Below are positions 18,008-36,633 of a DNA stretch of 52,666 bases, one piece after another; position 1 is the first letter of the stretch; each line of letters opens with the position of its first letter. Source of the DNA: a virus. The notes beneath the pieces are model-generated. The model worked only from the letters and a program-made list of their open reading frames with translations. It had not been told where the DNA came from and did no database searches. The translations under genes were made by a program, and so were the position numbers. The stretch lies in the IMG/VR virus record IMGVR_UViG_3300036781_000342, positions 1 through 52,666 of that record. One strand, 5' to 3'.

Positions 18008-18014
18008 CCAACAC

Positions 18015-18038: not shown

Positions 18039-18061
18039 ACCCTTCTCATCGGAGCTACCCC

Positions 18062-20223: not shown

Positions 20224-20450
20224 CCGTCCTCCACAGCCAATCCGACACCCGCGACGACCGCACCAAGTGCGGCGTCGAAGGCATCCAGATCGCACTCGGC
20301 GGGCGGCTTGCGCTGCTGTCGCCAGGCCGATGCGCCTTCAAGCTGGCGTTCGAAGGCGAGCAGGTGACGTGCGCGACGTGCGTCGCAGGCGTCCGCACGC
20401 TGCGCGGGGTGCGGACGATGGGCTGGAAGCGGTTGTTGGGGGACGTATGA
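20220..20450 (+). CDS. Small Cys-containing phage protein
   Basis: 76 residues, GTGA overlap with the previous stop and ATGA overlap with the polymerase start. CATCVAGVRTL plus Cys18 and Cys38 could bind metal. Overlaps on both sides argue for a real gene. No family recognised. Confidence 0.6.
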   Translation: MTVLHSQSDTRDDRTKCGVEGIQIALGGRLALLSPGRCAFKLAFEGEQVTCATCVAGVRTLRGVRTMGWKRLLGDV

Positions 20451-22687: not shown

Positions 22688-22713
22688 CGACATACATACA
22701 TACGACATACAAT
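22684..22713 (+). promoter_or_regulatory. Promoter at the polymerase stop codon
   Basis: TTGACG (22684-22689, overlapping the TGA), 18 bases made of repeated ACATAC, then TACAAT (22708-22713). This is the best-matching rightward promoter in the early region and serves the cluster of small genes that follows. Confidence 0.65.
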
Positions 22714-22737
22714 TCGACACCCTCAAGGAGAGCAGCC

Positions 22738-22959
22738 CTGCCTCGCAAAGTCATCCGTCAACACTCCAACCAACGTGGGTTGAGTTCGCCGCCTCCGACA
22801 ACGATGCGAATCGCGCTCCCGTTGCTTCGTCGTGTCGACGCCATGGCGGACAGAGCGAAATACCGCACGAGTCGTTCGTGGCTGATCGCCAAGTACATTG
22901 AGGATGGCCTGGCGCGCGACGGCGACAAGGTGGTTGAGCCGACGGGGGTGTTCGAATGA
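22738..22959 (+). CDS. Ribbon-helix-helix protein, possible CTG start
   Basis: 73 residues if translation starts at CTG 22738, which has AAGGAG seven bases upstream and follows the promoter directly. In-frame TTG (22780) and ATG (22804) codons lack ribosome sites. Residues about 23-60 (MRIALPLLRRVDAMADRA, then SRSWLIAKYIEDGLARDG) have the strand-helix-helix pattern of Arc/CopG-type DNA-binding proteins. As the first gene after a strong promoter it may regulate that promoter. Confidence 0.6.
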   Translation: MPRKVIRQHSNQRGLSSPPPTTMRIALPLLRRVDAMADRAKYRTSRSWLIAKYIEDGLARDGDKVVEPTGVFE

Positions 22960-23195
22960 AGACCCGTGCGGATCGTCAGCTCGAGACACACCGAATGGCG
23001 AAGTGCGCTTGCGGCAATGTCGCTGGGTTGGGGGAGACGAAGTGCGGCCGCTGTCGCGTGGCCGACGATGTCGACGCCCAGCTCATAGAAGAGGCGCGCA
23101 ACCGGGCCTTGTACGCGGGTGCAGAGACGCCGTCCGATTTCGCGCTGGAGGAATTGTTGACGCGACTGGCCGACCGGCTGCAGGCGCTAACATGA
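22956..23195 (+). CDS. Small protein with zinc-ribbon-like N-terminus
   Basis: 79 residues, ATGA overlap. Residues 17-33 hold C-x-C and C-x-x-C (CACGNVAG, KCGRC), a likely zinc knuckle, followed by a helical part (QLIEEARNRALYAG, ALEELLTRLADRLQAL). Possibly a nucleic-acid or RNA polymerase-binding factor; no family recognised. Confidence 0.65.
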   Translation: MKTRADRQLETHRMAKCACGNVAGLGETKCGRCRVADDVDAQLIEEARNRALYAGAETPSDFALEELLTRLADRLQALT

Positions 23196-23302
23196 GACCC
23201 CGTCGCCACCCCTGCGACGAATCGACGGCCGAATGGCTCGTCATCGCCTTCGTCGTGCTCGTCGTCCTGCCCGTCATCTTCACCGGCCTGTCGTTCATCT
23301 AG
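23192..23302 (+). CDS. 36-residue single-pass membrane microprotein
   Basis: ATGA overlap with the preceding gene. A charged N-terminus (MRPRRHPCDESTAEW) leads into one hydrophobic helix (LVIAFVVLVVLPVIFTGLSFI) that runs to the C-terminus. Likely an inner-membrane early phage peptide, perhaps for exclusion or host take-over, which is speculation. Confidence 0.6.
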   Translation: MRPRRHPCDESTAEWLVIAFVVLVVLPVIFTGLSFI

Positions 23303-23311
23303 GAGCCCTCA

Positions 23312-23632
23312 ATGATCAACCGCGCTGAACTGGAAGAGGCGTGCGAGTTCTTTCGCAGGCGTCTCAATGAAAATAAGCCCCATCATCACCACGCCGCTGT
23401 TCTGGTGGACGCCGCGGAAGCCCACCTAGCCACGCTCCCGAAGACCAAGATGGTCGAGGTGTGGCACCTCGAATATGCGCGGCTTCAGAGCGAGGGCTAT
23501 TGGGCGGCGCTGGTGGAGGGCGGTTTCACCACCGCGCAAAGCGCAAAGCGCGAGGCCGAGCGGATGGGCCACGACAGCAAGAATGCTTGTCTCTGCGTCA
23601 CCGGCCCCCACCAGCAAGAGGTGCCCGCATGA
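23312..23632 (+). CDS. Uncharacterised early protein
   Basis: 106 residues; AGGAGCCCTCA gives the ribosome site before the ATG. An N-terminal helix (RAELEEACEFFRRRLNEN), a histidine run (PHHHHAA) and a second helix (TTAQSAKREAERMGHDSK) are visible. No known family. Confidence 0.65.
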   Translation: MINRAELEEACEFFRRRLNENKPHHHHAAVLVDAAEAHLATLPKTKMVEVWHLEYARLQSEGYWAALVEGGFTTAQSAKREAERMGHDSKNACLCVTGPHQQEVPA

Positions 23633-23847
23633 GCACGCCACACCTGCACGCCTTCACGGCCACCGTCACCTTCAATGACGGCGGCGAACCGCGCGAAATC
23701 CCGTACGACGCCCTGTGCGGGCTCAACGGCGGATTCTATTTCCAGGCTCTGGGCTCGCCATCGACGTGGCTGCCGGCCGACCGCATCGCCGAGATCGAGA
23801 TGACGGACAATCCGCACTATGTGGCGGGTGGTATGGTGGCGCAATGA
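23629..23847 (+). CDS. Small beta-rich phage protein
   Basis: 72 residues, ATGA overlap. Alternating strands: HAFTATVTFNDGGEPREI, GGFYFQALG, then ADRIAEIEMTDNP, a small barrel-like layout. No family recognised. Confidence 0.6.
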   Translation: MSTPHLHAFTATVTFNDGGEPREIPYDALCGLNGGFYFQALGSPSTWLPADRIAEIEMTDNPHYVAGGMVAQ

Positions 23848-24050
23848 ATCCCTTCGCTTGGTTCGCCATAGCCCTCTTAGCTGGCGGTTTCACTTGGTTT
23901 TGCGCTTCAGAGGACACCCGCACCCGTCAGTACGTCGCCGACTGCGACCAGCAGGGTGGCCGCGTGGTCCGTATGTACCTGCAGCAACACATGCGCTGGA
24001 TGCAGTGCGTTCACGGCCTCGAAGTCGTGACACTGCCGCAAGACCGATGA
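23844..24050 (+). CDS. Small membrane-anchored or exported protein
   Basis: 68 residues, ATGA overlap. Residues 3-19 (PFAWFAIALLAGGFTWF) form a membrane segment or signal. The remainder (Cys34, Cys55) is a short periplasmic-type domain: VADCDQQGGRVVRMYLQ, WMQCVHGLEV, where two cysteines could pair. Possible superinfection-exclusion candidate by topology only. Confidence 0.6.
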   Translation: MNPFAWFAIALLAGGFTWFCASEDTRTRQYVADCDQQGGRVVRMYLQQHMRWMQCVHGLEVVTLPQDR

Positions 24051-24337
24051 CCCTCGACGAACTCCGCGCCGACCGGCCCAACCTCGGCTTCGCCGTCTAC
24101 GCCTACGAGCCTGGCAAGCCCGTGACGCTGGAGATCCACGACGCCGACGGCCAGACCTACAGCGTCACGACACCGACGCTCGAGGCGGCGATCGGCGTTG
24201 CGTTTCCGTCTGTTGTTTCAAGGGTGCCGTCCGGCGACGAGTCGCACTCGTCGTCGCTGCGGCCGCGGCGCTACTCGCCTTCAGTGGCTGAGGAAGCGGA
24301 CGGCCCCGTTGAAACAACAGGCGATGTGTTTTCGTAG
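24047..24337 (+). CDS. Small phage protein with Ser-rich tail
   Basis: 96 residues, ATGA overlap. MTLDELRADRPNLGFAVYAYEPGKPVTLEIHDADG is a compact alpha/beta start also found in other phage hypothetical proteins. TPTLEAAIGVAFP follows, then a Ser-rich unstructured tail. Function unknown. Confidence 0.6.
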   Translation: MTLDELRADRPNLGFAVYAYEPGKPVTLEIHDADGQTYSVTTPTLEAAIGVAFPSVVSRVPSGDESHSSSLRPRRYSPSVAEEADGPVETTGDVFS

Positions 24338-24346
24338 GAGACAACG

Positions 24347-24565
24347 ATGGCCGTTAATATTCCCCTGGGCGACACCCGCTTGTCTGTGCAGGTCGACGAC
24401 GACACCGTGTGGCTTATCTTCCACACCGACGCAGGCAAGTCCGTCATGCTCAACATGGCCAGCATCGCCGACAAGGCGGCGGCAGAGGGCTTCATTAAGG
24501 CTGCCCTTAACCAATGGTTCAACGAGCGCGTCGATCAAGCCAAGGCACTTCGCCAAGGTGCCTAA
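24347..24565 (+). CDS. Small alpha/beta phage protein
   Basis: 72 residues, GGAGACAACG before the ATG. Two or three strands (MAVNIPLGDTRLSVQVD, VWLIFHTDAG) precede two helices (MASIADKAAAEGFIKAAL, QWFNERVDQAKALRQ). No family recognised. Confidence 0.65.
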   Translation: MAVNIPLGDTRLSVQVDDDTVWLIFHTDAGKSVMLNMASIADKAAAEGFIKAALNQWFNERVDQAKALRQGA

Positions 24566-24566
24566 C

Positions 24567-24743
24567 GTGCCTGACCAACAGCCGCCGCCCCACCAATGCC
24601 AATACTGCGGGCGGGACATGGCGCGCGAGAGCCACAAGCTCGACTGCCGGATCGTGCGCGACATCGACGGCATTGAAGGCTACCTAGACATCCCGGCGTT
24701 CCTGGATGTGCGGCGTGGTAAGCAGAGCGACGTGTTTGACTAG
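24567..24743 (+). CDS. Small zinc-finger-like protein
   Basis: 58 residues from a GTG at 24567 just after the previous stop. C-x-x-C and H-x4-C (CQYCGRDM, SHKLDC, residues 11-29) form a probable C2HC zinc site. The rest is acidic. Likely a small nucleic-acid-binding or adaptor protein. Confidence 0.55.
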   Translation: MPDQQPPPHQCQYCGRDMARESHKLDCRIVRDIDGIEGYLDIPAFLDVRRGKQSDVFD

Positions 24744-24750
24744 GGAGACG

Positions 24751-24873
24751 ATGATGCCGTTCACCAACGACGAGATCAGAAATATCGCTCGCGTAACGCT
24801 CGACCACTATGAGATGCGCCACTACCGCCGCCCGCCGCTGTGGCGGCGATTCTTGCGTTGGTTCGGTCTCTAG
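24751..24873 (+). CDS. 40-residue basic-tailed microprotein
   Basis: Starts ATGATG with GGGAG four to five bases upstream. An acidic helix (TNDEIRNIARVTLDHYEMR) is followed by a basic, aromatic tail (RRPPLWRRFLRWFGL) that could lie on a membrane. It is the last gene before the TCTGACGTCAGA palindrome. Clear ribosome site supports translation. Confidence 0.5.
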   Translation: MMPFTNDEIRNIARVTLDHYEMRHYRRPPLWRRFLRWFGL

Positions 24874-24885
24874 TCACGCCAGCCC

Positions 24886-24914
24886 TGTCTGACGTCAGAC
24901 AAATCCGTTAAACT
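24886..24914 (+). promoter_or_regulatory. Perfect TGTCTGACGTCAGACA palindrome with promoter
   Basis: The 16-base palindrome at 24886-24901 is the most symmetric member of the TCTGAC family. TAAACT (24909-24914) is a possible -10, and TGTCTG lies where the -35 would be, 17 bases away. A dimeric regulator binding here would control the methyltransferase-primase operon. Confidence 0.6.
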
Positions 24915-24946
24915 AGACGCTCCCGCGCACCCTCGAGGCGAGCCGT

Positions 24947-25660
24947 TTGACCCTTCTGTTAGGTGACTGTCGCGACGTCCTGCCGACGCTGGAACTCGCC
25001 GACGCCGCAATCACAGACCCGCCATACGGCGACACGAGCCTGGAGTGGGATCGCCGTGTAGATGGTTGGGTGGCGGTGTTGGCGCGGGCGCTCAAGCCGG
25101 CGGCCAGTGTGTGGGTGTTCGGCAGCTTGCGCTTCCTCGTGCCGGTCTTTGCCGAGTTGGAAGCGGCCGGCTTTCGCTACAGCCAGGACATCGTTTGGCA
25201 TAAGCAAAACGGCACTGGCTTCCACGCCGACCGCTTCCGGCGTGTCCACGAGCACGCGGCGATGTTCTACCGGGGTGCGTGGTCCGACGTCTACCACGAC
25301 ACGCAGTACACAGCCGACGCGACGGCGCGGACAGTGCGTCGGAAGAAGCGGCCAGCGCATACCGGCCACATCGAAGCGTCGCACTACGTCAGCCACGACG
25401 GCGGCCCGCGCATGATGCGGAGCGTGTTGGACGTCCGTAACGAACACGGCCGAGCGGTTCACCCGACCCAAAAGCCTGTCGAACTGATAGAGCCTCTGGT
25501 GCGCTACAGCGTGCCGCCCGGCGGCTTGGTCGTAGACCCGTTCGCCGGCAGTGCTTCGACCTGCCTCGCAGCGATAAGCGCCGGCCGACGCTACGTCGGC
25601 ATCGAGAAAAACGCCGACTATTTCGCAATGGCGCAACAGCGGATTGGAGTCTTCCTGTGA
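24947..25660 (+). CDS. DNA methyltransferase, beta class (N6-adenine or N4-cytosine)
   Basis: 237 residues from a TTG at 24947 (GAGGCGAG upstream). Motif IV DPPYGD (24-29) precedes motif I DPFAGSAST (about 196-204), the order of beta-class amino-methyltransferases. HPTQKPVELIEPLVRYS is motif X and the ADRFRRVHEHAAMF region is the probable target recognition part. No restriction endonuclease gene is beside it, so it is an orphan enzyme, probably protecting phage DNA or marking replicated DNA. It overlaps the primase gene by GTGA. Confidence 0.88.
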   Translation: MTLLLGDCRDVLPTLELADAAITDPPYGDTSLEWDRRVDGWVAVLARALKPAASVWVFGSLRFLVPVFAELEAAGFRYSQDIVWHKQNGTGFHADRFRRVHEHAAMFYRGAWSDVYHDTQYTADATARTVRRKKRPAHTGHIEASHYVSHDGGPRMMRSVLDVRNEHGRAVHPTQKPVELIEPLVRYSVPPGGLVVDPFAGSASTCLAAISAGRRYVGIEKNADYFAMAQQRIGVFL

Positions 25661-27849
25661 CCGGCAATCCGTTCCGTTCGTTCTTCGATGCGGGCTATCA
25701 GCGCTTGATACCCGTGGTGCCACCCGGTGCGCCGCTGTCGCCAAACTCGTCGCTCGCAAAGCGCATGGAGCGCGACGCCACCAAGGATGCGCGCGGCAAG
25801 GCGCCTGGCGTGCTGGGTGGCGATGGTCTCTGGCGTGGCGTCGACTGGCTAAAGATCGTCGTAAGTGAGCAGCTGCTCGACGAGTGGAACAGCTGGCAAG
25901 CCGGCGTAGGCATCCGCACCGGCGCGGGTTTGGTGGCTGTCGACATCGACACGTTGGACCCACAGCTCGCCAAGATCGCCGACGACGCTGCGAGCGAACT
26001 GCTGGGGCCATCGCCGGCGCGCATCGGCCGCGCCCCGAAGACCCTGCGCGTCTACCGCTGCACCGAAGACCGGCCCTACCAGCGCGCAACCTTCGCCGGC
26101 GGCATCGTCGAGTTGCTGACAGAGGGCAAGCAATTCGTCGCGTCCGGCATCCACCCCAAGACCGGCAAGCCCTACGAGTGGCAGCCTTACGCCATGCCGT
26201 TCACGGCCCTGGTCGAAGTCACTGGCGTCCAGCTCGACGCCTTCTTCGCCCGCCTGACCGAGATCCTGCCCGCAACCGAGATCAGCACCGAAGCCACAGC
26301 AGCGCGCGCCGACGTCGACCAGGCGCAGCTTGCAGGCAATCCAGACACGGTGGACGAAGCCGTGGCCGCGCTCCCAAACAACTTCGAGGACCGCGACAGC
26401 TACATCCGCGTCGGCGCTGCCATCAAGGCCGCCATCCCTGACGACCCGGAACACGGCCTCGAACTCTTCCAGGATTGGGCCAGCAAGTGGCACGACTACG
26501 ACGCCGACAACACAGCATCGGATTGGAAGCGGCTCAAGCCACCTTTCAGCGTCGGTGCGCAGTACCTCTACAGCCTCGCCAGCGAGCACGGCGACTTCAG
26601 CACCGCAGATGCATGGTTCACCGGCTCTAGCGCACCAGCGGGCTCCGCAGGTGTAGCAAAGACGATTTGGGATGAGGCACCGGCCGAGGCAGAGCCTGAG
26701 TTGCCGCCGCTCCAGTGGGCAAACACGCGCACCTGGCGCCAGACCGAAGCGCCCAAGCGGGAGTGGGAGGTAGACGGCTTCATCCCGCGCGGCGTCGTCA
26801 CGCTGGTCTATGGTGAGGGTGGCGTCGGCAAGACGCTCGTGATGCACCAGTACGCCGCGTGCGCCGCCGCAGGCGTCAAATGGCTGGGCCAACCGACCCG
26901 GCCGGCGCGCGTCATGTGCGTGTTCTGCGAGGACGACGAAGACGAGCTCCACCGGCGCCATCAGGCGATCATCAAGGCGTGCGGCATCGAGGGCGATTCC
27001 GTCGACGACAACCTGCGCATCATCTCACGCGCCGGCGAAGACAACCTGATCGTTGGCTTCAGCCGCTCGGGCGCTGCGATGCAGAAGACCGCTTTTTGGC
27101 ATCAGCTCAACCGCGAAGCCGATGCGTGGCAGCCCGACGTGCTGATCCTCGACACGATCGCCGACATCTATGGCGGGTCGGAGATAGACCGTATGCAGGT
27201 CAACCAGTTCGTGAAGGTCGGGCTTGGCGGCCTGGCGCCCAAGAACAGCAAGCGGTCGGTGATAGCCCTGGGCCATCCATCGGTGGCCGGTAGGTCTGAG
27301 GGGCGCAGCGGATCCACAGCCTGGTCCAACGCCTCGCGCCATAGAAACTACATGCGCCGGCCCAAGGGCAAGGAAAAGGGCAACGAGCGCGAGATAGAGG
27401 GGATGAAGACCAACCGCGGCGCGGTCGGCAACCTGTTGCAGGTCGAGTGGAAGGCCGGCGCGTTCTCGATCGTCGCCTCGTCTACCCAGATAGACCTAAA
27501 CGCTTTTAAAGAGGCTGCGGTGGCCAGTGTGGCGCGGGAGCAGACGACAGAGGGTCGCGAGGAAGCCGCTGTGCTGGCGGCTGTGGCGGCCGCGCGCACG
27601 GCGTGCCTGCCGCTGGGCATGTCGGCCCGGTCGTACAACACGTATGCCCCGCGCGCCCTGCGCGTCGCGTTCCCTGAGATCATGCGCCTAGTGCGCGGCG
27701 ATGACGCCATCGTTGAAGACGTGATGCGCCGACTACTGAGCAGCGGTCGTGTCAGGGCGGCAACCTGGCGGAACCCCGCGCGCAGGCACGACGTGTCGGG
27801 CTATGAGGTCGTTACGGCCGCATCGGCAGGGACCGACATATTCAATTGA
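25657..27849 (+). CDS. Primase-helicase (prim-pol plus RepA-like AAA ATPase)
   Basis: 730 residues from a GTG at 25657. Residues about 1-200 are the bifunctional primase/polymerase domain (GVGIRTGAGLVAVDID with the metal-binding Asp pair; later SGIHPKTG). About 225-310 is a PriCT-2-like linker (ALPNNFEDRDSYIRVGAAIKAA, WASKW). The ATPase domain has Walker A GEGGVGKT (about 386-393), Walker B VLILDTIADIYGG (about 490) and the sensor ALGHPS. The C-terminal part (LPLGMSARSYNTYAPRAL) is winged-helix-like. It primes and unwinds phage DNA. The gene ends just before the terminator and iteron island, a natural place for a replication origin. Confidence 0.87.
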   Translation: MTGNPFRSFFDAGYQRLIPVVPPGAPLSPNSSLAKRMERDATKDARGKAPGVLGGDGLWRGVDWLKIVVSEQLLDEWNSWQAGVGIRTGAGLVAVDIDTLDPQLAKIADDAASELLGPSPARIGRAPKTLRVYRCTEDRPYQRATFAGGIVELLTEGKQFVASGIHPKTGKPYEWQPYAMPFTALVEVTGVQLDAFFARLTEILPATEISTEATAARADVDQAQLAGNPDTVDEAVAALPNNFEDRDSYIRVGAAIKAAIPDDPEHGLELFQDWASKWHDYDADNTASDWKRLKPPFSVGAQYLYSLASEHGDFSTADAWFTGSSAPAGSAGVAKTIWDEAPAEAEPELPPLQWANTRTWRQTEAPKREWEVDGFIPRGVVTLVYGEGGVGKTLVMHQYAACAAAGVKWLGQPTRPARVMCVFCEDDEDELHRRHQAIIKACGIEGDSVDDNLRIISRAGEDNLIVGFSRSGAAMQKTAFWHQLNREADAWQPDVLILDTIADIYGGSEIDRMQVNQFVKVGLGGLAPKNSKRSVIALGHPSVAGRSEGRSGSTAWSNASRHRNYMRRPKGKEKGNEREIEGMKTNRGAVGNLLQVEWKAGAFSIVASSTQIDLNAFKEAAVASVAREQTTEGREEAAVLAAVAAARTACLPLGMSARSYNTYAPRALRVAFPEIMRLVRGDDAIVEDVMRRLLSSGRVRAATWRNPARRHDVSGYEVVTAASAGTDIFN

Positions 27850-27872
27850 GCGACATACAAACGCCAAGAGAC

Positions 27873-27903
27873 GCCCCGCCACAGTGCGGGGCTTTTCATT
27901 TGT
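27873..27903 (+). terminator. Rho-independent terminator of the rightward early operon
   Basis: GCCCCGC-CACAGT-GCGGGGC followed by TTTTCATTT, 23 bases after the primase stop. The 31 bases reappear exactly, inverted, at 28232-28262, and the inverted similarity continues outward through CGACATACAAA. Confidence 0.85.
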
Positions 27904-27910
27904 ATGCGGC

Positions 27911-28172
27911 GCGCGGCAGTCGTGCGCGGCACTGCGCGGCACTTCGGTTTTTGAGTGCGCGGCACTGCGCGGCAGTTGCTCTAGAATGCAAGCGGGCGTG
28001 CATTTCAGCCAAATGCGCGGCAGTCAAAGCAACTGACTTGACATACACGCTTGCGCGGCACTGCGCGGCAGTGCGCGGCAGTTGGTTTAAAATGCAAGCG
28101 GGCGTGCGTTATATGCTGTTTTGGCCATAGTGCGCGGCAGTGCGCGGCAGTGCGCAAGGCTAGTGCGCGGCA
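27911..28172 (+). repeat. Array of twelve TGCGCGGCA[CG]T iterons (gene-free island)
   Basis: The core GCGCGGCA occurs at 27911, 27924, 27934, 27957, 27967, 28015, 28053, 28063, 28073, 28132, 28142 and 28165, always on the plus strand. Neighbouring copies are often exactly 10 bases apart. AATGCAAGCGGGCGTGC occurs twice (27985-28001 and 28091-28107). The interval 27850-28284 contains no credible gene: frames there only repeat RHCAAV-like peptides. Following the primase-helicase and isolated by two terminators, it may be the replication origin or a regulatory RNA locus. Confidence 0.8.
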
Positions 28173-28231
28173 GTCACCCCTTATAGGGGGACGCCAAGCC
28201 AACTGTTGTTGGTCAAACGATAGGCCACCGC

Positions 28232-28262
28232 ACAAATGAAAAGCCCCGCACTGTGGCGGGGC
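28232..28262 (-). terminator. Terminator of the leftward small-gene unit
   Basis: Exact inverted copy of 27873-27903, so on the minus strand it reads GCCCCGC-loop-GCGGGGC then TTTTCATTT. It lies 22 bases past the stop of the last leftward gene. Confidence 0.85.
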
Positions 28263-28284
28263 CTAGGGTTTCATTTGTATGTCG

Positions 28285-28407
28285 TCATGGCGGCGGCCTG
28301 GCGCGGTTCGACCAATCGACCAATCGGCCAACGATGCGCTCGACAAGAGAGGGCAGGACGCTGAAGGCGACTATCAGCAGGGCGAGCAGGATTACGAGCT
28401 TGATCAT
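28285..28407 (-). CDS. 40-residue membrane microprotein
   Basis: ATGA overlap with the upstream gene. Residues 2-19 (IKLVILLALLIVAFSVLP) span the membrane, followed by an amphipathic basic tail (ERIVGRLVDWSNRARPPP). Last gene of the leftward unit before the terminator. Function unknown. Confidence 0.55.
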   Translation of the reverse strand: MIKLVILLALLIVAFSVLPSLVERIVGRLVDWSNRARPPP

Positions 28408-28652
28408 GTGGGCTGCTCTGCGATCGCCAAGATATGAACCCAGTTGCGTCTGTGAAACTCGGCCTCAACATGCCGCGTCATGTGCGTCCCGTACACGTTG
28501 GCGCGTTCCGCCATAGACCTCGCCACTTCCGCGGGGCTGCGTTTCGCCATCACAGCCCAGGGTGATGTCGGATAGGCGTAAGCCGTTGCGCCTGTCTCTG
28601 TGTCGCCCACCATGAAACCGCCGGAACGGTCGAACCTGCCAAGCAAAGCCAT
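28404..28652 (-). CDS. Uncharacterised small phage protein
   Basis: 82 residues from the ATG at 28652, one base after the previous stop; a longer in-frame reading is less likely. MALLGRFDRSGGFMVGDTETG begins beta-like, followed by SPAEVARSMAERANVYGTHM and a C-terminal helix. No family recognised. Confidence 0.6.
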   Translation of the reverse strand: MALLGRFDRSGGFMVGDTETGATAYAYPTSPWAVMAKRSPAEVARSMAERANVYGTHMTRHVEAEFHRRNWVHILAIAEQPT

Positions 28653-28653
28653 G

Positions 28654-28965
28654 TCACACGCTCCTGATGATTTGATAGCCAGCGGACCTAAGTTGGTCCG
28701 TCCATGACTCGCCGCCATCGTCGCGGATCTTCACCGCGCCAATGGTCATGTTGTGGGCGGCCGCCGTCTCGTCGGGGCCGCTCCCGAGCTCCCAACGTTT
28801 CACCGTCGCCCACTCGCCTGCGGCGCTGCAGGTGCAGTGGCCGGGGCTAGGCTGGTGAAACTGTATGGTGGCGATGTGCTCGCCCCTGGCGTCCAGGACC
28901 GTATAGGCAGACGCGATCGTGTTGGTTGGCGGGGTGGCCGGTGTGAGGCGCTGTGCGGCGTTCAT
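28654..28965 (-). CDS. Uncharacterised small phage protein
   Basis: 103 residues, ATGA overlap with the upstream gene. A beta-rich centre (AYTVLDARGEHIATIQFHQ, HCTCSAAGEW) and a C-terminal DDGGESWTDQLRSAGYQI are visible. No family recognised. Confidence 0.6.
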   Translation of the reverse strand: MNAAQRLTPATPPTNTIASAYTVLDARGEHIATIQFHQPSPGHCTCSAAGEWATVKRWELGSGPDETAAAHNMTIGAVKIRDDGGESWTDQLRSAGYQIIRSV

Positions 28966-29240
28966 TGGCCGTCTACCTTCGTCGGGTAGCGCTGGCTGCC
29001 GTGAGCGAACACGAACACGTAGGAGCCGTTAGGCAGGCCGCCGACGATCAGTTCGTCGCCGTAGGGCAAGCCACTCCAGCCCAGCTTGTTGCAGAGCGCC
29101 ACCGCGGCCCGCGCTGCGTTCTGCTCGAGGTGCAACGCGTGGTCAACGCCTAGCGTGATCGAACCCGACGCGCACGTCGCTTTGTAGCGGCTGCCGCGAA
29201 TGTTCGTCGGTCCCAGAAACTTCACTTGGATGGCTTGCAT
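28962..29240 (-). CDS. Conserved small phage protein (KFLGPTNIRGSR type)
   Basis: 92 residues from the ATG at 29240 (GGGAG seven bases upstream). QVKFLGPTNIRGSRYKATCASGSITL is a motif I recall from many phage and plasmid hypothetical proteins; LHLEQNAARAAVALCNKLGW and GGLPNGSYVFVF follow. It probably forms a small alpha/beta domain. Function unestablished. Confidence 0.68.
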   Translation of the reverse strand: MQAIQVKFLGPTNIRGSRYKATCASGSITLGVDHALHLEQNAARAAVALCNKLGWSGLPYGDELIVGGLPNGSYVFVFAHGSQRYPTKVDGQ

Positions 29241-29290
29241 TGTCTGTCTCCCGTTGTCTGACGTGTGACACTCTAGGCGTGTGAAATCGC

Positions 29291-29368
29291 TCAATCCTTG
29301 GCCATGCGGCAGAGCCGCAGTGCTACGATCAAGGCGAGTGCAAAGGCGATTAGGTAGGCTGTCAGCAT
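29291..29368 (-). CDS. 25-residue transmembrane microprotein
   Basis: MLTAYLIAFALALIVALRLC and a short basic end. The leader AGGAGACAGACA before its ATG is nearly the same as that of the next gene (GGGAGACAGACA), so both are probably translated. A single hydrophobic helix spans almost the whole peptide. Confidence 0.5.
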   Translation of the reverse strand: MLTAYLIAFALALIVALRLCRMAKD

Positions 29369-29399
29369 TGTCTGTCTCCTGTCGGTTGACGCTCAATGA

Positions 29400-29423
29400 G
29401 GCTGTGACGCGAACGCCACAGCC
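29400..29423 (-). terminator. Hairpin after the lipoprotein gene
   Basis: GGCTGTG / CACAGCC stem, 16 bases beyond the lipoprotein stop (leftward), followed by TCATTGAGCGTCAAC. A similar hairpin plus tail is at 29685-29722. It lacks a T-run, so it may only be a partial terminator. Confidence 0.4.
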
Positions 29424-29438
29424 CTGGGAGCGCCAGCG

Positions 29439-29642
29439 CTACTTGCCAGCGCTGCCTGCGCCACCGTCGCCACCGACGCCGCTGGTTGCCTTGGACGGGT
29501 CGCCGCACGAATAGCCGCTGTTGACGTACAGCGTCTTGCCGTCGCGCGTGACGGTGCAGGTGCCCATGGACGGGTCCGGCAGGCTTTCGCCGCAAGCGGC
29601 AAGGGTGACGGCAGCGACGGCGATTGCGATGATCTTCGACAT
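29439..29642 (-). CDS. Small phage lipoprotein
   Basis: 67 residues from the ATG at 29642 (AAGGAG seven bases upstream). The signal MSKIIAIAVAAVTLAACGES ends in a lipobox with Cys17, so it should be lipidated at the membrane. The mature part has two cysteines (TCTVTRDGKTLYVNSGYSC) and a Gly-rich tail (GVGGDGGAGSAGK). Expression from a prophage could give surface or superinfection effects, by analogy with other phage lipoproteins. Confidence 0.68.
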   Translation of the reverse strand: MSKIIAIAVAAVTLAACGESLPDPSMGTCTVTRDGKTLYVNSGYSCGDPSKATSGVGGDGGAGSAGK

Positions 29643-29699
29643 GATGGTTCTCCTTTGCTGGCCGCGGGATTGCGGCTTTGAGCCGTTGGCGCTCAATGA

Positions 29700-29722
29700 A
29701 GCGTCACCTTGCGGGTGACGCT
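29700..29722 (-). terminator. Hairpin after the 71-residue gene
   Basis: Perfect nine-base stem AGCGTCACC / GGTGACGCT with a five-base loop, between two leftward genes. It is followed on the minus strand by TCATTGAGCGCCAAC, almost the same tail as at 29385-29399, exactly 300 bases away. Confidence 0.5.
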
Positions 29723-29759
29723 CTAGGAACGTCAGGGGTCTGTCGTGTGGTGTCTGGTG

Positions 29760-29975
29760 TCAGACGCTGGATGCGTGCGAAATCGGCTCAAGGTTGACGC
29801 CAAACAGGCGGGCCATGACGCCAGCGAGGAAGGCGCGGTAGCACTCGCGACCATCCTGCATCGCCAGGAACATTTCGCCTGCAGTGGCGGGCCGGTCTGC
29901 GCCAATGGCGTACCACTGGGTGAGTAGCGGCGTGATGTCGGTGTGGAAGCCGTTCGGCTCTTTGCGCAGGGTCAT
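29760..29975 (-). CDS. Uncharacterised small phage protein
   Basis: 71 residues, AGGA seven bases before the ATG. Helical: NGFHTDITPLLTQWYAIGA, GEMFLAMQDGRECYRAFLAGVMARLFG. No membrane segment clear enough to call and no family recognised. Confidence 0.6.
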   Translation of the reverse strand: MTLRKEPNGFHTDITPLLTQWYAIGADRPATAGEMFLAMQDGRECYRAFLAGVMARLFGVNLEPISHASSV

Positions 29976-30051
29976 TCGTCTTTCCTGTTGTTGCTGGCAC
30001 TCACTAGAGGGGCGGCGGTTTGGAGCCGCGCGCCACTCAGGCGATGGTCAG

Positions 30052-30315
30052 CTATTCGGCGTCGGGGTCGACCAAGGTGATTTGGTCTTCGGTCCATTCG
30101 TCGCCGTTCTCGTCGAGGAACACCGTCTTGCCGTCGCGTGTGACGGTTTCCATGGCGTCCCAGAACATCTCCGAGCCACCTTCGTGGTCATAGCCAATCG
30201 AACCGTCTTCGTTGCGATAGAAGCACGCGATCTCAGCGCGAGCCGGGCACATCTCGTACGTACCGAGGATGGCGGCGCCGGTTGGGCTGATAGCTGCGAA
30301 TGTCTTTGTGGTCAT
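30052..30315 (-). CDS. Acidic small phage protein
   Basis: 87 residues from the ATG at 30315 (GGGAG eight bases upstream). Strands and turns with many acidic residues: RNEDGSIGYDHEGGSEMFWD, GKTVFLDENGDEWTEDQITL. The net charge suggests a DNA mimic or adaptor, which is only a guess. It has its own copy of the TTGACATCAGAC promoter. Confidence 0.6.
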   Translation of the reverse strand: MTTKTFAAISPTGAAILGTYEMCPARAEIACFYRNEDGSIGYDHEGGSEMFWDAMETVTRDGKTVFLDENGDEWTEDQITLVDPDAE

Positions 30316-30341
30316 TGCGATGTCTCCCGTTGCGATGTCCA

Positions 30342-30371
30342 CTTGTATGTCACTTGTATGTCTGATGTCAA
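30342..30371 (-). promoter_or_regulatory. Leftward promoter of the acidic protein gene
   Basis: Minus strand TTGACA (30366-30371), 18 bases beginning TCAGACATACAAG, TACAAG (30342-30347). Confidence 0.6.
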
Positions 30372-30398
30372 CACGAATCAGACGATTATTTTTGACAG

Positions 30399-30608
30399 TC
30401 AGCCGCGCTCGGCCACTCGTTTCGCGTCATCAAGGCGACGGATGTGTGCTGCGAGCGTGCGCCAGTCTCGCGCGCCTCCCGGCCACGTAACGGCGCGCTG
30501 AACGTTGTAAGAACCGGGCCGGTCACGGTAGACGATGGCTTGCGCCACACCGTCCTTGTCGTGCGCGACGGAGCGACCGTCTTTCGTTGTCCATGTCCAA
30601 GCTGGCAT
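30399..30608 (-). CDS. Uncharacterised small phage protein
   Basis: 69 residues, GGGGG before the ATG at 30608. A beta-like first half (AWTWTTKDGRSVAHDKDGVAQAIVYRD) and a basic helix (WRTLAAHIRRLDDAKRVAERG). Served by the second promoter module. No family recognised. Confidence 0.6.
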   Translation of the reverse strand: MPAWTWTTKDGRSVAHDKDGVAQAIVYRDRPGSYNVQRAVTWPGGARDWRTLAAHIRRLDDAKRVAERG

Positions 30609-30633
30609 TGATGCCCCCTGTTTGCGATGTCCA

Positions 30634-30663
30634 TTTGTATGTCACTTGTATGTCTGATGTCAA
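30634..30663 (-). promoter_or_regulatory. Leftward promoter, second module
   Basis: Minus strand TTGACA (30658-30663), 18 bases with TCAGACATACAAG, TACAAA (30634-30639). Confidence 0.6.
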
Positions 30664-30690
30664 CACGTATCAGACGATTATTTTTGACGG

Positions 30691-31014
30691 TCAGGCCGCC
30701 ATGATCGCGGCCTTGGCCGCTTCCTGATTGTCGAAATCGACGAAGTATGCGGCCTTGTCGAAAAGGCGCTGGGCGTGCGCTTGCGGCTCGCCGACGATCG
30801 TCATCACCTTCGTTGCGCCGTAGCGGTTGGAGTAGCTGTAGACAGGCGATGCAGGGTAGGCGCGGTATTTCTTGAGCAGGCCATCGCGCGTTGCACTCTC
30901 CGCTCGGACGATGCGGATGTTGTGCCGCTTCGTTGGCTCACGCCCAGAGCCGAAAGCGAAATGCGTCACATGCGTTTCGATGATGGCGCAGATATCGCCT
31001 TTCTTGATTGTCAT
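30691..31014 (-). CDS. Uncharacterised small phage protein
   Basis: 107 residues from the ATG at 31014 (GGGAG eight bases upstream). Strands MTIKKGDICAIIETHVTHFAFGSG and HNIRIVRAESATRDG at the start suggest a small barrel, then YSYSNRYGATKVMTIVG and a C-terminal helix (QEAAKAAIMAA). First gene of the leftward small-gene unit, opposite the terminase side. Confidence 0.62.
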   Translation of the reverse strand: MTIKKGDICAIIETHVTHFAFGSGREPTKRHNIRIVRAESATRDGLLKKYRAYPASPVYSYSNRYGATKVMTIVGEPQAHAQRLFDKAAYFVDFDNQEAAKAAIMAA

Positions 31015-31040
31015 CGTCGATACTCCCGTTGCGATGTCCA

Positions 31041-31071
31041 TTTGTATGTCACTTGTCGTTACAAGCGTCAA
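31041..31071 (-). promoter_or_regulatory. Leftward promoter, third (diverged) module
   Basis: Minus strand TTGACG (31066-31071), 19 bases, TACAAA (31041-31046). The spacer differs from the other two modules, but the sequence downstream of the -10 is shared. Confidence 0.5.
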
Positions 31072-31090
31072 CAGACATCAGACAGACAAA

Positions 31091-31133
31091 TTGACGGAAT
31101 AGCTGAACAACGTTAACTTATCGCTGTTCAGTT
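31091..31133 (+). promoter_or_regulatory. Rightward promoter and dyad before terminase small subunit
   Basis: TTGACG (31091-31096), 17 bases, TAACTT (31114-31119). Inverted arms CTGAACA (31103-31109) and TGTTCAG (31125-31131) straddle the -10, so binding of a dimer here would block the late promoter. Confidence 0.5.
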
Positions 31134-31153
31134 ATGAATCGGAGTGACGGAAT

Positions 31154-31603
31154 TTGCCCGACAAGACAGGCCGACTAGGCGCACAAGAGCGAACGTTTGT
31201 GCAAGCCATGGCCGCTACAGGTGACAAGCGATACGCGGCCGAGAAGGCGGGTTATTCCCAACCGCTCACATCGGCCAGCAAGGCACTCGCGCGGCCGGCG
31301 GTGCACGATGCAATCGTCAAGCTGCAGCAACAGCGGATGACGAATGAGGCGCTACCGCTGGCCGTGCAGGCGTTCATTGACGTTCTGAGCGATCCCAAAA
31401 CAGGCGCAATGGCCAAGATTGCGGCCGCAAAGGTCGTGTATGAGAAAACAGCGACGCAGACAGACACGGCAGACAAGCCGATTCATGAGCTGACGTTGGC
31501 AGAGCTCAACGCGCGCATCGTGGCGCTGTCCGACCAGGCTCGAGCGGTCGACGTTGAGATCCTCGAGCAAGAGCCGGCCGCCTCGAGCGGCGTTTTCGAG
31601 TGA
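31154..31603 (+). CDS. Terminase small subunit
   Basis: 149 residues from a TTG at 31154 with GGAG nine bases upstream. LGAQERTFVQAMAATGDKRYAAEKAGYSQPLTSASKALARPAV is the helix-turn-helix DNA-binding domain of small terminases. A central oligomerisation helix follows (FIDVLSDPKTGAMAKIAAAKVVYE), then LTLAELNARIVALSDQARAVDVE. It should recognise the packaging site and recruit the large subunit. The large-subunit gene is unusually far away (40175). Confidence 0.78.
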   Translation: MPDKTGRLGAQERTFVQAMAATGDKRYAAEKAGYSQPLTSASKALARPAVHDAIVKLQQQRMTNEALPLAVQAFIDVLSDPKTGAMAKIAAAKVVYEKTATQTDTADKPIHELTLAELNARIVALSDQARAVDVEILEQEPAASSGVFE

Positions 31604-31634
31604 CTTGCGCGCAACCTGCCTAGCTCGACACGTA

Positions 31635-31688
31635 TATAATGCAGCAAACACAGGCAGTGTCGTGGCCTATCGTAGGCCACGATGCTGC
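31635..31688 (+). other. TATAAT box followed by a 16-bp hairpin (possible small RNA or packaging site)
   Basis: A perfect TATAAT (31635-31640) is followed at 31654-31688 by a stem of 16 pairs (two G-U) with a TCG loop: GCAGTGTCGTGGCCTA / TAGGCCACGATGCTGC. There is no good -35. The interval 31604-32083 holds no confident gene. Adjacent to terminase small subunit, this could be part of a pac/cos region. Confidence 0.5.
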
Positions 31689-31851
31689 CACCTGGCTGCC
31701 GTGCGTCGCCGTTTCATGCAGGTATGGTGCCCGGTACCGGCCCCCGGCCCACGGCTCGACGCGCCAGTTCAAGGCCGCGTATCAGGCCCGTACTAATTTG
31801 CCCCGACAGGATCGGTCTGGACACTTTGTCCTACGAAACGTCTGAGATGTC

Positions 31852-31881
31852 TTGACACAAGACAGACACCGGACGTACACT
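31852..31881 (+). promoter_or_regulatory. Strong rightward promoter
   Basis: TTGACA (31852-31857), 18 bases with AGACAGACACC, TACACT (31876-31881). The transcript would begin near 31888 and meet a terminator 40-90 bases later. Confidence 0.65.
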
Positions 31882-31927
31882 CCGCATCGTTCTCCCAAAG
31901 CCGCCCAGCGTATCGGTCGGCCGCTTA

Positions 31928-31979
31928 GCCCCGACGGAAACAGGGTTCACACCCCGCCAATCCCGTCGGGGCGGTTTTT
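31928..31979 (+). terminator. Terminator or attenuator downstream of the 31852 promoter
   Basis: Ten-pair stem GCCCCGACGG (31928-31937) / CCGTCGGGGC (31963-31972) enclosing a 25-base loop with its own GGG-CCC pairing, followed by GGTTTTT. Together with the promoter it defines a transcript of about 90 bases unless read through. Confidence 0.65.
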
Positions 31980-32083
31980 CCAAGTTTCGTCTGTAACTGC
32001 CGTAACACCGGCAGCCCGTAAGGGCCTCGGGACAGGTCGCAAGACTCCTCCCGAGGTTCGCCCCACCACCCGGAGCCCTCACC

Positions 32084-32101
32084 ATGACCCAAGGCATCTA
32101 G
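32084..32101 (+). CDS. Five-codon leader peptide MTQGI
   Basis: ATG-ACC-CAA-GGC-ATC-TAG with GGAGCCCTCACC upstream, almost the same ribosome site as the next gene (GGAGCCCTCC). It ends nine bases before that gene's ATG, so it may couple or attenuate its translation. Peptide production is unproven. Confidence 0.35.
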   Translation: MTQGI

Positions 32102-32110
32102 GAGCCCTCC

Positions 32111-32419
32111 ATGGCCGACGCCAATCCGTTCCTCCAAGCCGGCGAGACCTACGCCGCCCAGCTCGACGCCGAGCTCGCATCAGCGCAGGCCGCCGCCAAG
32201 TCACTCGCCGAGCAGGCAGCCCAAGCCGTCAAGAACCTCGCCGAGACCAAGGCCAAGTCCGTCCTCGCGCATGGCGCGCTCGACGCCACGAAGCTGGCCA
32301 CCGGCGCCATCAAGCTTCCGAGCAAGACGGCCGAGTACGTCGCGATCGGCTCGGTCGTGCTGCTGACCGCCGTCGGGCTGTACGCCGCAGGCCACGCCTT
32401 CCTCGGGTGGCCGCTGTGA
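32111..32419 (+). CDS. Helical protein with C-terminal membrane segment
   Basis: 102 residues, AGGAG nine bases before the ATG. Residues 10-60 are an Ala/Lys/Glu helix (QLDAELASAQAAAKSLAEQA) likely to be a coiled coil. Residues about 74-98 (YVAIGSVVLLTAVGLYAAGHAFLGW) cross the membrane. First gene of the late block after the promoter-terminator segment. Could be a virion or infection-stage membrane protein. Confidence 0.65.
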   Translation: MADANPFLQAGETYAAQLDAELASAQAAAKSLAEQAAQAVKNLAETKAKSVLAHGALDATKLATGAIKLPSKTAEYVAIGSVVLLTAVGLYAAGHAFLGWPL

Positions 32420-32664
32420 GCGGCGCCGAGATCGCGCTGCTCATACTCGCCGGCTGGTACCTGACGGCGTGGCTATTCCTCGCCATCACGGCCGACGTCG
32501 ATCTGCTCGACCGGGACGCCGGATTCCGGCTCACGGCGGTCTTCCTCGGCAGCCCGGTGCTGCTGGGACTGCTCGTGTGGTTCTGGGTCCAGGACTTCGC
32601 CGCACCGACGGCCTGGGCGTACCTCAAGCGCTGCTGGCGCACCCGCCGCGGCTACTGGAACTGA
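32416..32664 (+). CDS. Two-helix membrane protein
   Basis: 82 residues, GTGA overlap. Two hydrophobic segments (GAEIALLILAGWYLTAWLFLA and FRLTAVFLGSPVLLGLLVWFWV) with a short acidic loop, then a basic tail (KRCWRTRRGYWN). Holin-like topology, but two better-placed candidates occur in the lysis cassette, so its role is open. Confidence 0.6.
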   Translation: MSGAEIALLILAGWYLTAWLFLAITADVDLLDRDAGFRLTAVFLGSPVLLGLLVWFWVQDFAAPTAWAYLKRCWRTRRGYWN

Positions 32665-32666
32665 TC

Positions 32667-32867
32667 ATGCCGCCGTTCACCAAGACCACCGCACCCAAGA
32701 AGTCCCCCGCGTTCGCGACGAAGCCGGCTCCGGTTCCGTCGGACATGGCGGACCAGTTCTACGCATCTGGAAAGGCGGCCGGGAAGGCCCCAGGCGCCAA
32801 GCTGCCGCAGCCCAAGGCCAGCGCGCCGAAGACCTCGAGCGTGCCGCTGTTCGGCGGCAAGAAGTAA
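32667..32867 (+). CDS. Small Lys/Pro/Ala-rich protein
   Basis: 66 residues, basic and probably disordered (FTKTTAPKKSPAFATKPAPVP, KLPQPKASAPKTSS). May be a minor structural or DNA-binding peptide. It follows the previous stop by two bases, and no strong ribosome site is seen. Confidence 0.5.
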   Translation: MPPFTKTTAPKKSPAFATKPAPVPSDMADQFYASGKAAGKAPGAKLPQPKASAPKTSSVPLFGGKK

Positions 32868-32999
32868 CCGAGACCCGCCAACGGCTGGCGTGCGGGGCAA
32901 GCGGGCGAAGCCGCCCTAAGCTGATCCAAGACTTCCTCGCGGTCTGGCCGGCAACTCAAGGCCACCGAAGGATCAGCAGCCGACCGTCTGACGTCCGTC

Positions 33000-33028
33000 T
33001 TGCTACGTCAGACAATTCGCCTTACAAT
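33000..33028 (+). promoter_or_regulatory. Promoter with CGTCAGAC spacer before the virion genes
   Basis: TTGCTA (33000-33005), 17 bases starting CGTCAGACAATT, TACAAT (33023-33028). GTCTGACGTCCGTC just upstream (about 32986-32999) gives an inverted pair of motifs around the -35. Confidence 0.65.
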
Positions 33029-33064
33029 GCTCAAGAGCACAGCGATTGTCTTCCGCTAGCTCGA

Positions 33065-33143
33065 GATAGGGCGCGGTCTGGTGACGTTGAGGGGCGTTCG
33101 CCGGGCTGACGCCAAGCAGTGAGCTCTGCTCCCGCGCCCTGTC
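33065..33143 (+). ncRNA. Candidate structured 5' leader RNA (three-way junction)
   Basis: Outer stem of 12 pairs (33065-33076 with 33132-33143; core AGGGCGCGG/CCGCGCCCT, one wobble) encloses two hairpins: GGCGTT/GACGCC (33093-33098, 33108-33113) and AGCAG/CTGCT (33115-33119, 33126-33130). It lies in the 312-base gap 32868-33179, about 35 bases after the promoter start point and 37 bases before the next ATG. No known RNA family was recognised; hammerhead core sequences are absent. Confidence 0.5.
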
Positions 33144-33179
33144 ACTTCCTCCCTCGCGACGCAACGATGAGGTAGGACG

Positions 33180-33464
33180 ATGTCGCTTCCGGCAGCTTAT
33201 GCGATGGTGGGTTTCGAGCAGGTGTCGTTGTCAGACAGCAGCGCGCACGGCCCCGCCAGTGTCCCCGCCAACGCCGCCATGGCCATCATCATACCCGAGG
33301 GCGGCGACCTGCGATTGCGCGCCGACGGCACCGATCCGACCGCGAGCGTCGGCATTCCGGTATTACAGGGTGCGGAGTGGGATCACCCCTGCGACCCGTC
33401 GAAACTGCGCTTCATCCGACAGACTGCCGTCACCGTCACCGTCAACATAGCGTATTTCCAGTGA
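33180..33464 (+). CDS. Small virion-associated protein
   Basis: 94 residues, GAGGTAGGACG before the ATG. A single beta-sandwich-like domain: EQVSLSDSSAHGP, AMAIIIPEGGDLRLRADGTDPTAS, KLRFIRQTAVTVTVNIAYF. Very similar small proteins accompany capsid and tail genes in other phages and may decorate the virion. It is coupled to the tail spike gene by GTGA. Confidence 0.65.
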   Translation: MSLPAAYAMVGFEQVSLSDSSAHGPASVPANAAMAIIIPEGGDLRLRADGTDPTASVGIPVLQGAEWDHPCDPSKLRFIRQTAVTVTVNIAYFQ

Positions 33465-34936
33465 ATATCCCCGGCCTCGGCGGCCGGCGCGGGTTCGGTG
33501 GTCTTTCTGCCCGGCGTTTTCCTGATTTGGGGGCTTCCAGGTCGAAGGCGTATCTGTTCGTCGATCCGGTTGGTGGCAACGACAACAACTCAGGCGCAAG
33601 CTGGTCCAAGGCGATCGCCGGCGGCTCGGTGGCGCTCGCCGCCAAGATCAAGCCCGGCATGACTGTCACGGTGAAATCCGGCACGACGCTGCGCGCCGTG
33701 TTGCCGAGTGCATCCGGCGTATCCTATGTCTGCACGGGTGCAACCATCCTTGGCTCAGAAGCGCTGCCGGTCGGCAGTGCCACTCTGGTCAGCGGAACAA
33801 AGTACAAGATCGCCACTTCGCTGCATCGCCCCAATACCGGGGGCACCACCGCGACCAACAGCATCTACCTCTACACGAACGGGGTCGGATACAACGGCAC
33901 GGACGATCCGACTCCGGTTCCGAAGAACGCCACCAACTCCGCCTCGGTGGGCACGAACGAATGGTCGATGCCGGGCGACGGATTTCTCTATTTCGATCTT
34001 GGCCGCGCCGTCACGGCCGACGACGTATTCGAGATGCCGCAACGCAACGGCGCGTCTATCGAGCATTCGGGAATGCGCATCCTCGGCGGCACCTGGCGTC
34101 ATGCCGAGGGCAAGACAATCCTGATTGGCAGCGTCAACCAGATCAGCGGTGCGGAGGTGGGCCATATCGATGCGGCCTGGGCCAGCGACGACGGCGTGAA
34201 CGTCAAGGGCACCGCGGGCGGCTGCACCGGGATCTACATCCACGACAGCACGTTCCACGACCTGCAGTACGATGGCGGCGGCGGGGGCGACGGCATCAGC
34301 TTCGAGAACGCGACGCCCGGCAACAGCGGTCTGATCGAGCGTTGCAACTTCATTCGCTGCGGCAAGACGGCGCTCGGCATGTCGGACAGCAACGTCGTCC
34401 GCTATCACGACCTGTATTGCGATGCTTCGTCAATCGCGATCGCCGGCAGCGGGACGCAAGCCGGCTCGCACGTCTTCACCCGCATCCGCATGGTCAACGA
34501 GTGGCCGCAGGTTGCGACCAATGTTCACTACTTCTACGTCTTTCCCTTGTGTCACGCCGCTACCGTCGTCGACATCAACGGCCTATCGGTCTATCGCGGC
34601 ACCGGAACCACGGCCAGCCTGCGCGCGGTTCGCCTGCAGTCCGGCGACTGCCGCATCCACAACGTGGTGGTAGAGGGCGTGGGCGCCAGCACGACGATGG
34701 GCGCGGGCTTCATGCAGTCTGGCGATACGTTCACCGAAAGCAACTGCGCGGCGCACGGCTGCGACGCCAATTTCTTCGGCACCTGGCCGGGAACCAACGA
34801 CCTCACCTTGTCGGGCGCGCCGTTCACCAACGCCGCGGCGGGAGACCTCACGCCGACTTCGCAGATTGCAGGCAAGGGCGTCGGCGGCGTCGACATCGGC
34901 TACACGGCGGTTCCGGCGCTGCCCGCGCCCGGCTAG
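33461..34936 (+). CDS. Tail spike-like protein, right-handed beta-helix
   Basis: 491 residues from a GTG at 33461. After KAYLFVDPVGGNDNNSGASWSKAI, a pattern typical of parallel beta-helix polysaccharide-degrading proteins, the body has repeated short strands with GTWRH, GIYIHDSTFHDLQYDG, GLIERCNFIRCGKTALGM turns (about 200-320). Such proteins trim host capsule or O-antigen. No catalytic residues can be assigned by eye. Located beside the collar fibre gene, it is a likely receptor-binding depolymerase. Confidence 0.75.
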   Translation: MNIPGLGGRRGFGGLSARRFPDLGASRSKAYLFVDPVGGNDNNSGASWSKAIAGGSVALAAKIKPGMTVTVKSGTTLRAVLPSASGVSYVCTGATILGSEALPVGSATLVSGTKYKIATSLHRPNTGGTTATNSIYLYTNGVGYNGTDDPTPVPKNATNSASVGTNEWSMPGDGFLYFDLGRAVTADDVFEMPQRNGASIEHSGMRILGGTWRHAEGKTILIGSVNQISGAEVGHIDAAWASDDGVNVKGTAGGCTGIYIHDSTFHDLQYDGGGGGDGISFENATPGNSGLIERCNFIRCGKTALGMSDSNVVRYHDLYCDASSIAIAGSGTQAGSHVFTRIRMVNEWPQVATNVHYFYVFPLCHAATVVDINGLSVYRGTGTTASLRAVRLQSGDCRIHNVVVEGVGASTTMGAGFMQSGDTFTESNCAAHGCDANFFGTWPGTNDLTLSGAPFTNAAAGDLTPTSQIAGKGVGGVDIGYTAVPALPAPG

Positions 34937-35009
34937 GTCAACTCTCCCTTTCGGCTGTCTGAATTGTCTGATATCATTCAACACCGTCAGACAACCAGGC
35001 CGCAGCATC

Positions 35010-36619: not shown

Positions 36620-36633
36620 CACGAAGAGGCTTC

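Follow-up and report, generated by a model that had tools for sequence, protein, structure and literature searches.

A proposed replication origin with changing iterons downstream of a primase–helicase gene in a prophage and its relatives

Immediately downstream of a primase–helicase gene in the window (the whole stretch analysed here, a viral record of 52,666 bases) is an island of short direct repeats, which we propose to be the replication origin of the prophage, with the protein encoded upstream as its initiator. We put the probability of this reading at about 85%; it rests on sequence, comparison and fold predictions, from which we infer binding, melting, priming and initiation. An origin at this place had been suggested in the initial annotation, and the suggestion is supported by the conservation of the array, in place and layout, among relatives with the same gene. 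The elements present fit an iteron origin: repeats, a stretch likely to open, a possible site for priming and, next to them, a protein combining a predicted reader, a ring helicase and a primase. Like iteron-type origins in general, the island has several short direct repeats beside the gene of its proposed initiator.

The island and the gene upstream

The phage is laid out as an integrase gene (9790–10884, − strand), a rightward replication block (~12.5–27.85 kb), a leftward block of small genes (28.3–31.0 kb) and rightward packaging and head genes. The island follows the primase–helicase gene between converging units, as first described: the rightward gene ends at 27849 and the leftward genes start from 28285. 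No reading frame in the island is backed by gene calls, and the promoter scan found no site within it. Also encoded in the replication block is a GapR-like DNA-binding protein (18655–18984; PF10073, E 4.5e-32), and an N6/N4 DNA methylase gene (24947–25660) overlaps the start of the primase–helicase gene. The features of the region are as follows.

25657–27849, + strand: gene for a 730-residue Prim-Pol / PriCT-2 / RepA-like helicase / C-terminal winged-helix protein, proposed initiator, helicase and primase (Pfam, PDB, models)
27535–27846, + strand: part coding for the C-terminal domain, predicted winged helix and proposed iteron reader (model; co-variation with repeats)
27850–28286, no strand: proposed replication origin island, non-coding (array, exclusivity, conserved position and layout in relatives)
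27851–27903, + strand: left arm, terminator of the primase operon (stem 27873–27892), with GACATACAA before the stem (terminator scan, inverted-repeat match)
27910–27943, + strand: iterons at 27910 (one mismatch), 27923 and 27933 (repeat scan)
27956–27976, + strand: iterons at 27956 and 27966 (repeat scan)
27977–28004, + strand: first copy of the inter-iteron box, TGCTCTAGAATGCAAGCGGGCGTGCATT (in the 49-nt direct repeat, 90% identical)
28014–28024, + strand: single iteron (repeat scan)
28052–28082, + strand: iterons at 28052, 28062 and 28072, in 10-bp steps (repeat scan)
28083–28110, + strand: second copy of the inter-iteron box, TGGTTTAAAATGCAAGCGGGCGTGCGTT; A+T peak and candidate unwinding site (49-nt repeat; closely similar in the nearest relative)
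28131–28151, + strand: iterons at 28131 and 28141 (repeat scan)
28164–28174, + strand: last iteron (repeat scan)
28177–28189, no strand: CCCCTTATAGGGG palindrome closing the array (form CCCCTA..GGGG)
28232–28284, − strand: right arm, terminator of the leftward genes (stem 28264–28241), with GACATACAA on the − strand (terminator scan, inverted-repeat match)

The repeat word of the window is TGCGCGGCAGT (TGCGCGGCAS). There are eleven exact TGCGCGGCAST sites, each on the + strand within 27923–28174; they start at 27923, 27933, 27956, 27966, 28014, 28052, 28062, 28072, 28131, 28141 and 28164, and a twelfth iteron at 27910 has one mismatch; of the twelve copies on one strand initially reported, the strand holds and the count becomes eleven exact plus one imperfect. 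A scan of the whole 52,666-base record found no exact site outside the island, and dinucleotide shuffles of the island (n = 1,000) contained at most one each. Steps within groups are 10 bp, so neighbouring iterons would lie on one face of the helix. Located between the groups are the two boxes, each flanked by iterons and each part of a direct duplication of ~49 bp (27956–28004 and 28062–28110, 90% identical). Neither this duplication nor the closing palindrome figured in the initial annotation. TTTAAAAT and TCTAGAAT boxes come after repeat groups. Enrichment in A+T is modest, the peak being 55% over 40 bp from 28080.

Pfam matches in the 730-residue protein are Prim-Pol, PriCT_2 and AAA_25. 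The helicase part, of RecA fold, has RepA of RSF1010 as its closest solved relative (PDB 1g8y; sequence E 8.8e-20); its model matches this structure with a Z-score of 25.1 and an r.m.s.d. of 2.6 over 227 residues, the next family scoring 19.7. The last ~100 residues (627–730) are modelled as H-H-H-β-β (pLDDT 87.4), helices followed by a β-hairpin in winged-helix order, and this C-terminal domain is predicted to be a winged helix. Its structural matches in the PDB are mostly winged-helix domains (IscR, PadR, MarR and an MCM wing domain; Z 6–7), none individually significant; Foldseek with the model returned nothing under E 0.001, from a match list of mostly winged helices, and Pfam and PDB sequence searches with the domain gave no significant family.

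Bounding the array are two hairpins described initially as exact 31-base inverted copies with outward similarity. The description is accurate: 27873–27903 is the reverse complement of 28232–28262 at all 31 bases, and longer arms of 53 nt (27851–27903 and 28232–28284) are 85% complementary. The two hairpins are the best two terminator-like sites in 18000–37500, one per strand, each directed into the island.

Arrays and their repeats in related loci

The window's repeat was found nowhere relevant (a single chance match among 2.9 million viral contigs, and not beside a primase gene), and relatives were therefore sought by gene instead, the first of them being found through the capsid and polymerase genes; no DNA-level similarity was found in phages. 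In the three closest phages an array lies in the same position, each with a different repeat: TGCGTGAGCG in locus L021, TTGCGTGTCG in L017 and GAAGTCCATGA in L023, whose helicase half is also different. The initial annotation had proposed looking for the 10-base repeat beside primase genes in relatives; the window's own repeat was not found there, but arrays of other repeats are present. What relatives with the same primase gene keep is the place and layout of the array, not its sequence.

Arrays were scored by the commonest 8-mer downstream of the gene, with one mismatch allowed and 20 shuffles per locus. Among 145 distinct related loci, 84 beat all 20 of their own shuffles (about 7 by chance). 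The commonest downstream 8-mer averages 6.1 copies, against 3.3 in shuffles and 3.7 at gene ends, and at least six copies are present at 68 loci against 8 among the gene-end controls. The other 61 loci (~40%), mostly distant, have no array above shuffles beside the gene. Twelve copies follow the gene in Rhizobium phage RHph_N65, an isolated phage (MN988536.1, gene and array at about 32804–35300), and eight in EBPR siphovirus 5, with a shuffle maximum of 5 in both. Of the exact units in each record, 9 of 10 lie inside the array in G001, the nearest relative, as do 8 of 10 in RHph_N65. The phage record stretches examined carry no origin annotation.

Helicase-only relatives in other bacterial genomes also have arrays, often in 11-bp steps, including relatives whose C-terminal domain is of the same type. 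L065 has a similar C-terminal domain and no array. Among the helicase-only relatives are chromosomal genes for proteins of ~380–550 residues (L049, L052, L053, L054, L072 and similar), with 7–10 direct repeats after the stop codon (for example, CTTCCAAC, CTTCAGAC and CTTCGAAC), which are probably origins of integrated elements. In Wolbachia phage WO (L205:4190–4430, KX522565.1), AAGTTGGCAAGATGGC-like repeats and TCCTATATAGAGG lie just after a RepA-like ATPase gene; we do not claim an array there, its 7 copies equalling the shuffle maximum of 7, though the stretch is a place to consider for the WO origin.

Repeat spacing persists between relatives whose repeats differ. Distances between repeat starts are 23, 10, 48, 48, 10, 59, 10 and 23 in the window, where the second 48 contains one more unit, and 24, 10, 47, 49, 10, 59, 10 and 23 in L021, within 1 bp throughout. 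The unit is TGCGTGAGCG in all nine copies of L021 and TGCGCGGCAS in all eleven of the window. Between the two loci 33 of 60 repeat columns and 45 of 73 other columns are identical, with inter-repeat stretches such as AAAATGCAAG-GGGCGTGCG kept; in the repeat columns TGCG is kept and the changes fall at the same places in every unit. Much the same scaffold pattern is found in a second group (L027, L028, L086, L066, L081, L082, L097 and L102), in which sites near 99, 109, 117, 151, 165 and 174 are kept in most members and the repeats are ACGGAAGT, GGCGTAGG, TGCGGAGG or GGCGAGGG. As far as these alignments go, the repeat word changes in concert across all units while the spacing scaffold stays.

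To see what in the protein changes with the repeat, we compared 48 array-bearing proteins that are 640 residues or longer. The similarity of their repeats correlates with domain identity for the C-terminal domain (Spearman 0.44) and the helicase (0.41), and not for Prim-Pol (−0.03). Partial Mantel coefficients are 0.215 for the C-terminal domain and 0.182 for the helicase (0/999 permutations for both) and −0.155 for Prim-Pol, in a permutation test that ignores shared ancestry and does not separate the effects of helicase and C-terminal domain. By this comparison the repeat co-varies with the helicase/C-terminal half and not with Prim-Pol. Two prophages of Rhodopseudomonas pseudopalustris DSM 123 (L033 and L035) are 87% identical in Prim-Pol, 55% in the helicase and 21% in the C-terminal domain, and their repeats differ (CGCAAAGYCC and TGCATCRAGT). 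Identities in the same order are 63, 75 and 53% for L034 and L035, with near-identical repeats, and 35, 64 and 71% for L102 and L082, which have the repeat GGCGAGGGT in common. An exception is the pair L027 and L028, with C-terminal domains 56% alike and different repeats, so that the C-terminal domain alone does not predict the repeat.

In 15 of the 48 loci the array is closed by a CCCCTA..GGGG palindrome lying 1–18 bp beyond its last repeat (chance expectation 0.1; no case among the gene controls). A CTAAGTCATTGA-like box lies within the array region of 28 of the 48. By a simple rule the left terminator is present in 2 of the 48 loci, the window and its nearest relative only, and the right terminator in 11. 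Shielding from transcription, initially taken as part of the design, is not general to it, because the left terminator occurs in so few loci; this seal is lineage-specific, and we rejected the terminator pair as an essential part.

Proposed mechanism and competing readings

In the mechanism that we propose, the C-terminal winged-helix domain would bind the 10/11-bp iterons, grouped on one helix face at 10-bp steps. The RepA-like ring would then open and unwind the A+T-richer boxes between iteron groups, and the Prim-Pol domain would prime, perhaps at the CCCCTA..GGGG element at the end of the array, the primed product passing to the phage DNA polymerase (20465–22687). The two terminators would halt converging transcripts at the island, a local refinement dispensable to the general design. 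Over evolutionary time, the iterons would change in concert, along with the C-terminal half of the initiator, and their spacing scaffold would remain constant. The GC-skew curve tracks gene direction and has no usable turning point at the island.

A variant compatible with an origin is that the iterons are read by another protein, such as the GapR-like protein or a host factor, the primase–helicase being recruited afterwards. RSF1010 offers a model in its RepC-type recruitment, and the partial correlation of the helicase, about as strong as that of the C-terminal domain, leans the same way. We nevertheless regard this variant as unlikely: arrays are also present in helicase-only relatives that have a C-terminal domain of this type, that domain is predicted by modelling to be a winged helix, and the arrays stay beside the primase–helicase gene in many contexts. 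That last observation, of an array after the helicase gene in many unrelated contexts, also weighs against a centromere-like partition site read by ParB, ParR or a ribbon-helix-helix protein. Direct repeats of 10–11 bp in helical phase do resemble parC-type sites, but the integrase marks the phage as integrative and no partition-protein match was found among the phage proteins scanned, a subset of the genes, which makes a partition site very improbable.

Direct repeats also serve as operators, and a phage regulator or the primase might bind these to control the replication operon or promoters in the island, for which the TTTAAAAT and TCTAGAAT boxes could be −10 elements. The array, however, is 3′ of the gene, with inward-facing terminators around it in the window; the island lacks any gene-call-supported frame or promoter-scan site, and the repeats co-vary with the helicase/C-terminal half of a replication protein. 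We judge an operator array improbable as the main function, and the initiator may regulate its own expression alongside origin function. The initial annotation had offered a regulatory RNA locus as its alternative. The G+C-rich repeats fold strongly in absolute terms, but the fold z-scores are −1.2 and −1.1, with 10–12 of 100 shuffles folding equally well, Rfam has no match in the island, and the relatives keep spacing, not base pairing. We rejected a structured RNA from the island on the Rfam and folding results, and it is the least probable of the readings considered here.

Returning to the origin reading, one tentative and rather doubtful extension is that these phages repeatedly rewrite every iteron of an origin together, keeping pace with the C-terminal reader and leaving the spacing fixed, because it is advantageous to be unreadable to co-resident prophages, satellites or origin-directed nucleases. 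Such selection is plausible because one phage nuclease is known to attack the iterons of a satellite, and changes in those iterons are known to give escape from it (PMC8263062). If true, these origins would make up an extensive collection of mutually orthogonal replicons whose protein–DNA code could be read. The origin reading itself allows an origin to be predicted across a broad range of alphaproteobacterial phages and related elements. About 48 naturally occurring combinations of reader domain and repeat, swaps included, make joint changes of origin and initiator specificity directly testable, and orthogonal small replicons would be useful tools.

Relation to known replication modules

Judged on the features compared, the family would work like SaPI/PICI, RSF1010 and pRN1 modules but departs from each of them in a tested feature. 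Common to the window and IncQ plasmid RSF1010 are a RepA-type hexameric helicase fold, an archaeo-eukaryotic-type primase, iterons and hairpins near the origin. RSF1010 divides the work among the helicase RepA, the primase RepB′ and the iteron binder RepC, three proteins in place of the single 730-residue fusion, and its iterons are ~20 bp long, against 10/11 bp in the window. The inverted hairpins of the window, which are not conserved among relatives (left, 2 of 48 loci), may or may not act like its ssiA/ssiB single-strand initiation hairpins.

The initial annotation had called the design unrecognised, which is too strong, because short repeats directly 3′ of an initiator gene are described for SaPIs, PICIs and SCCmec. 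In PICIs (PMC6092414) and SaPIs (PMC7581432) iteron origins with this location have been functionally tested; in this trait the likeness here is one of position. The short iterons of SaPIs and PICIs are likewise grouped around an AT-rich part, here only modestly enriched. In SaPIs the helicase recognises the origin iterons through its C-terminal domain (PMC7581432), the role predicted for the counterpart of that domain here. Unlike in SaPIs and PICIs, the helicase is of the RSF1010 RepA (RecA-fold) type and not of the SaPI helicase family, the elements are phages of full size that carry head and packaging genes themselves (both a major head protein and the large subunit of terminase are encoded), and there is an additional CCCCTA..GGGG palindrome. 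SCCmec Cch2 similarly has a helicase whose C-terminal domain binds direct repeats just downstream of its gene (PMC7581432), but with 5-nt iterons, a different helicase and a separate primase-polymerase.

The order of Prim-Pol, helicase and predicted C-terminal winged helix, with the proposed origin directly downstream, is that of pRN1 ORF904 and BIP-1-type proteins (PMC4234260), but pRN1 has an SF3 helicase and a ~100-nt stem-loop without iterons, whereas the helicase here is RepA-like. The lambda O protein is also a phage initiator reading iterons beside an AT-rich region (PMC7466680), but there the iterons lie inside the O gene and the initiator is neither helicase nor primase. A limited literature search found no description of these arrays in this phage family.

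Two other features of the window lie mostly outside the island. A GACATACAA(G/A)TG motif (12 matches with at most one mismatch against 1.8 expected) occurs ahead of small genes that run leftward, near the gene for the repressor and at the island's outer edges (30340–30360, 30632–30652, 31039–31048, 28272–28283, 27852–27906 and 11475–11486), in places in tandem with 11-bp spacing, and is possibly a phage operator or promoter element. At the left end of the record are host-like genes, with names inferred from translations; in this part are a 27-nt inverted repeat (875–901 and 8598–8624) and a 91-nt direct repeat (2465–2555 and 5656–5746, 96%).
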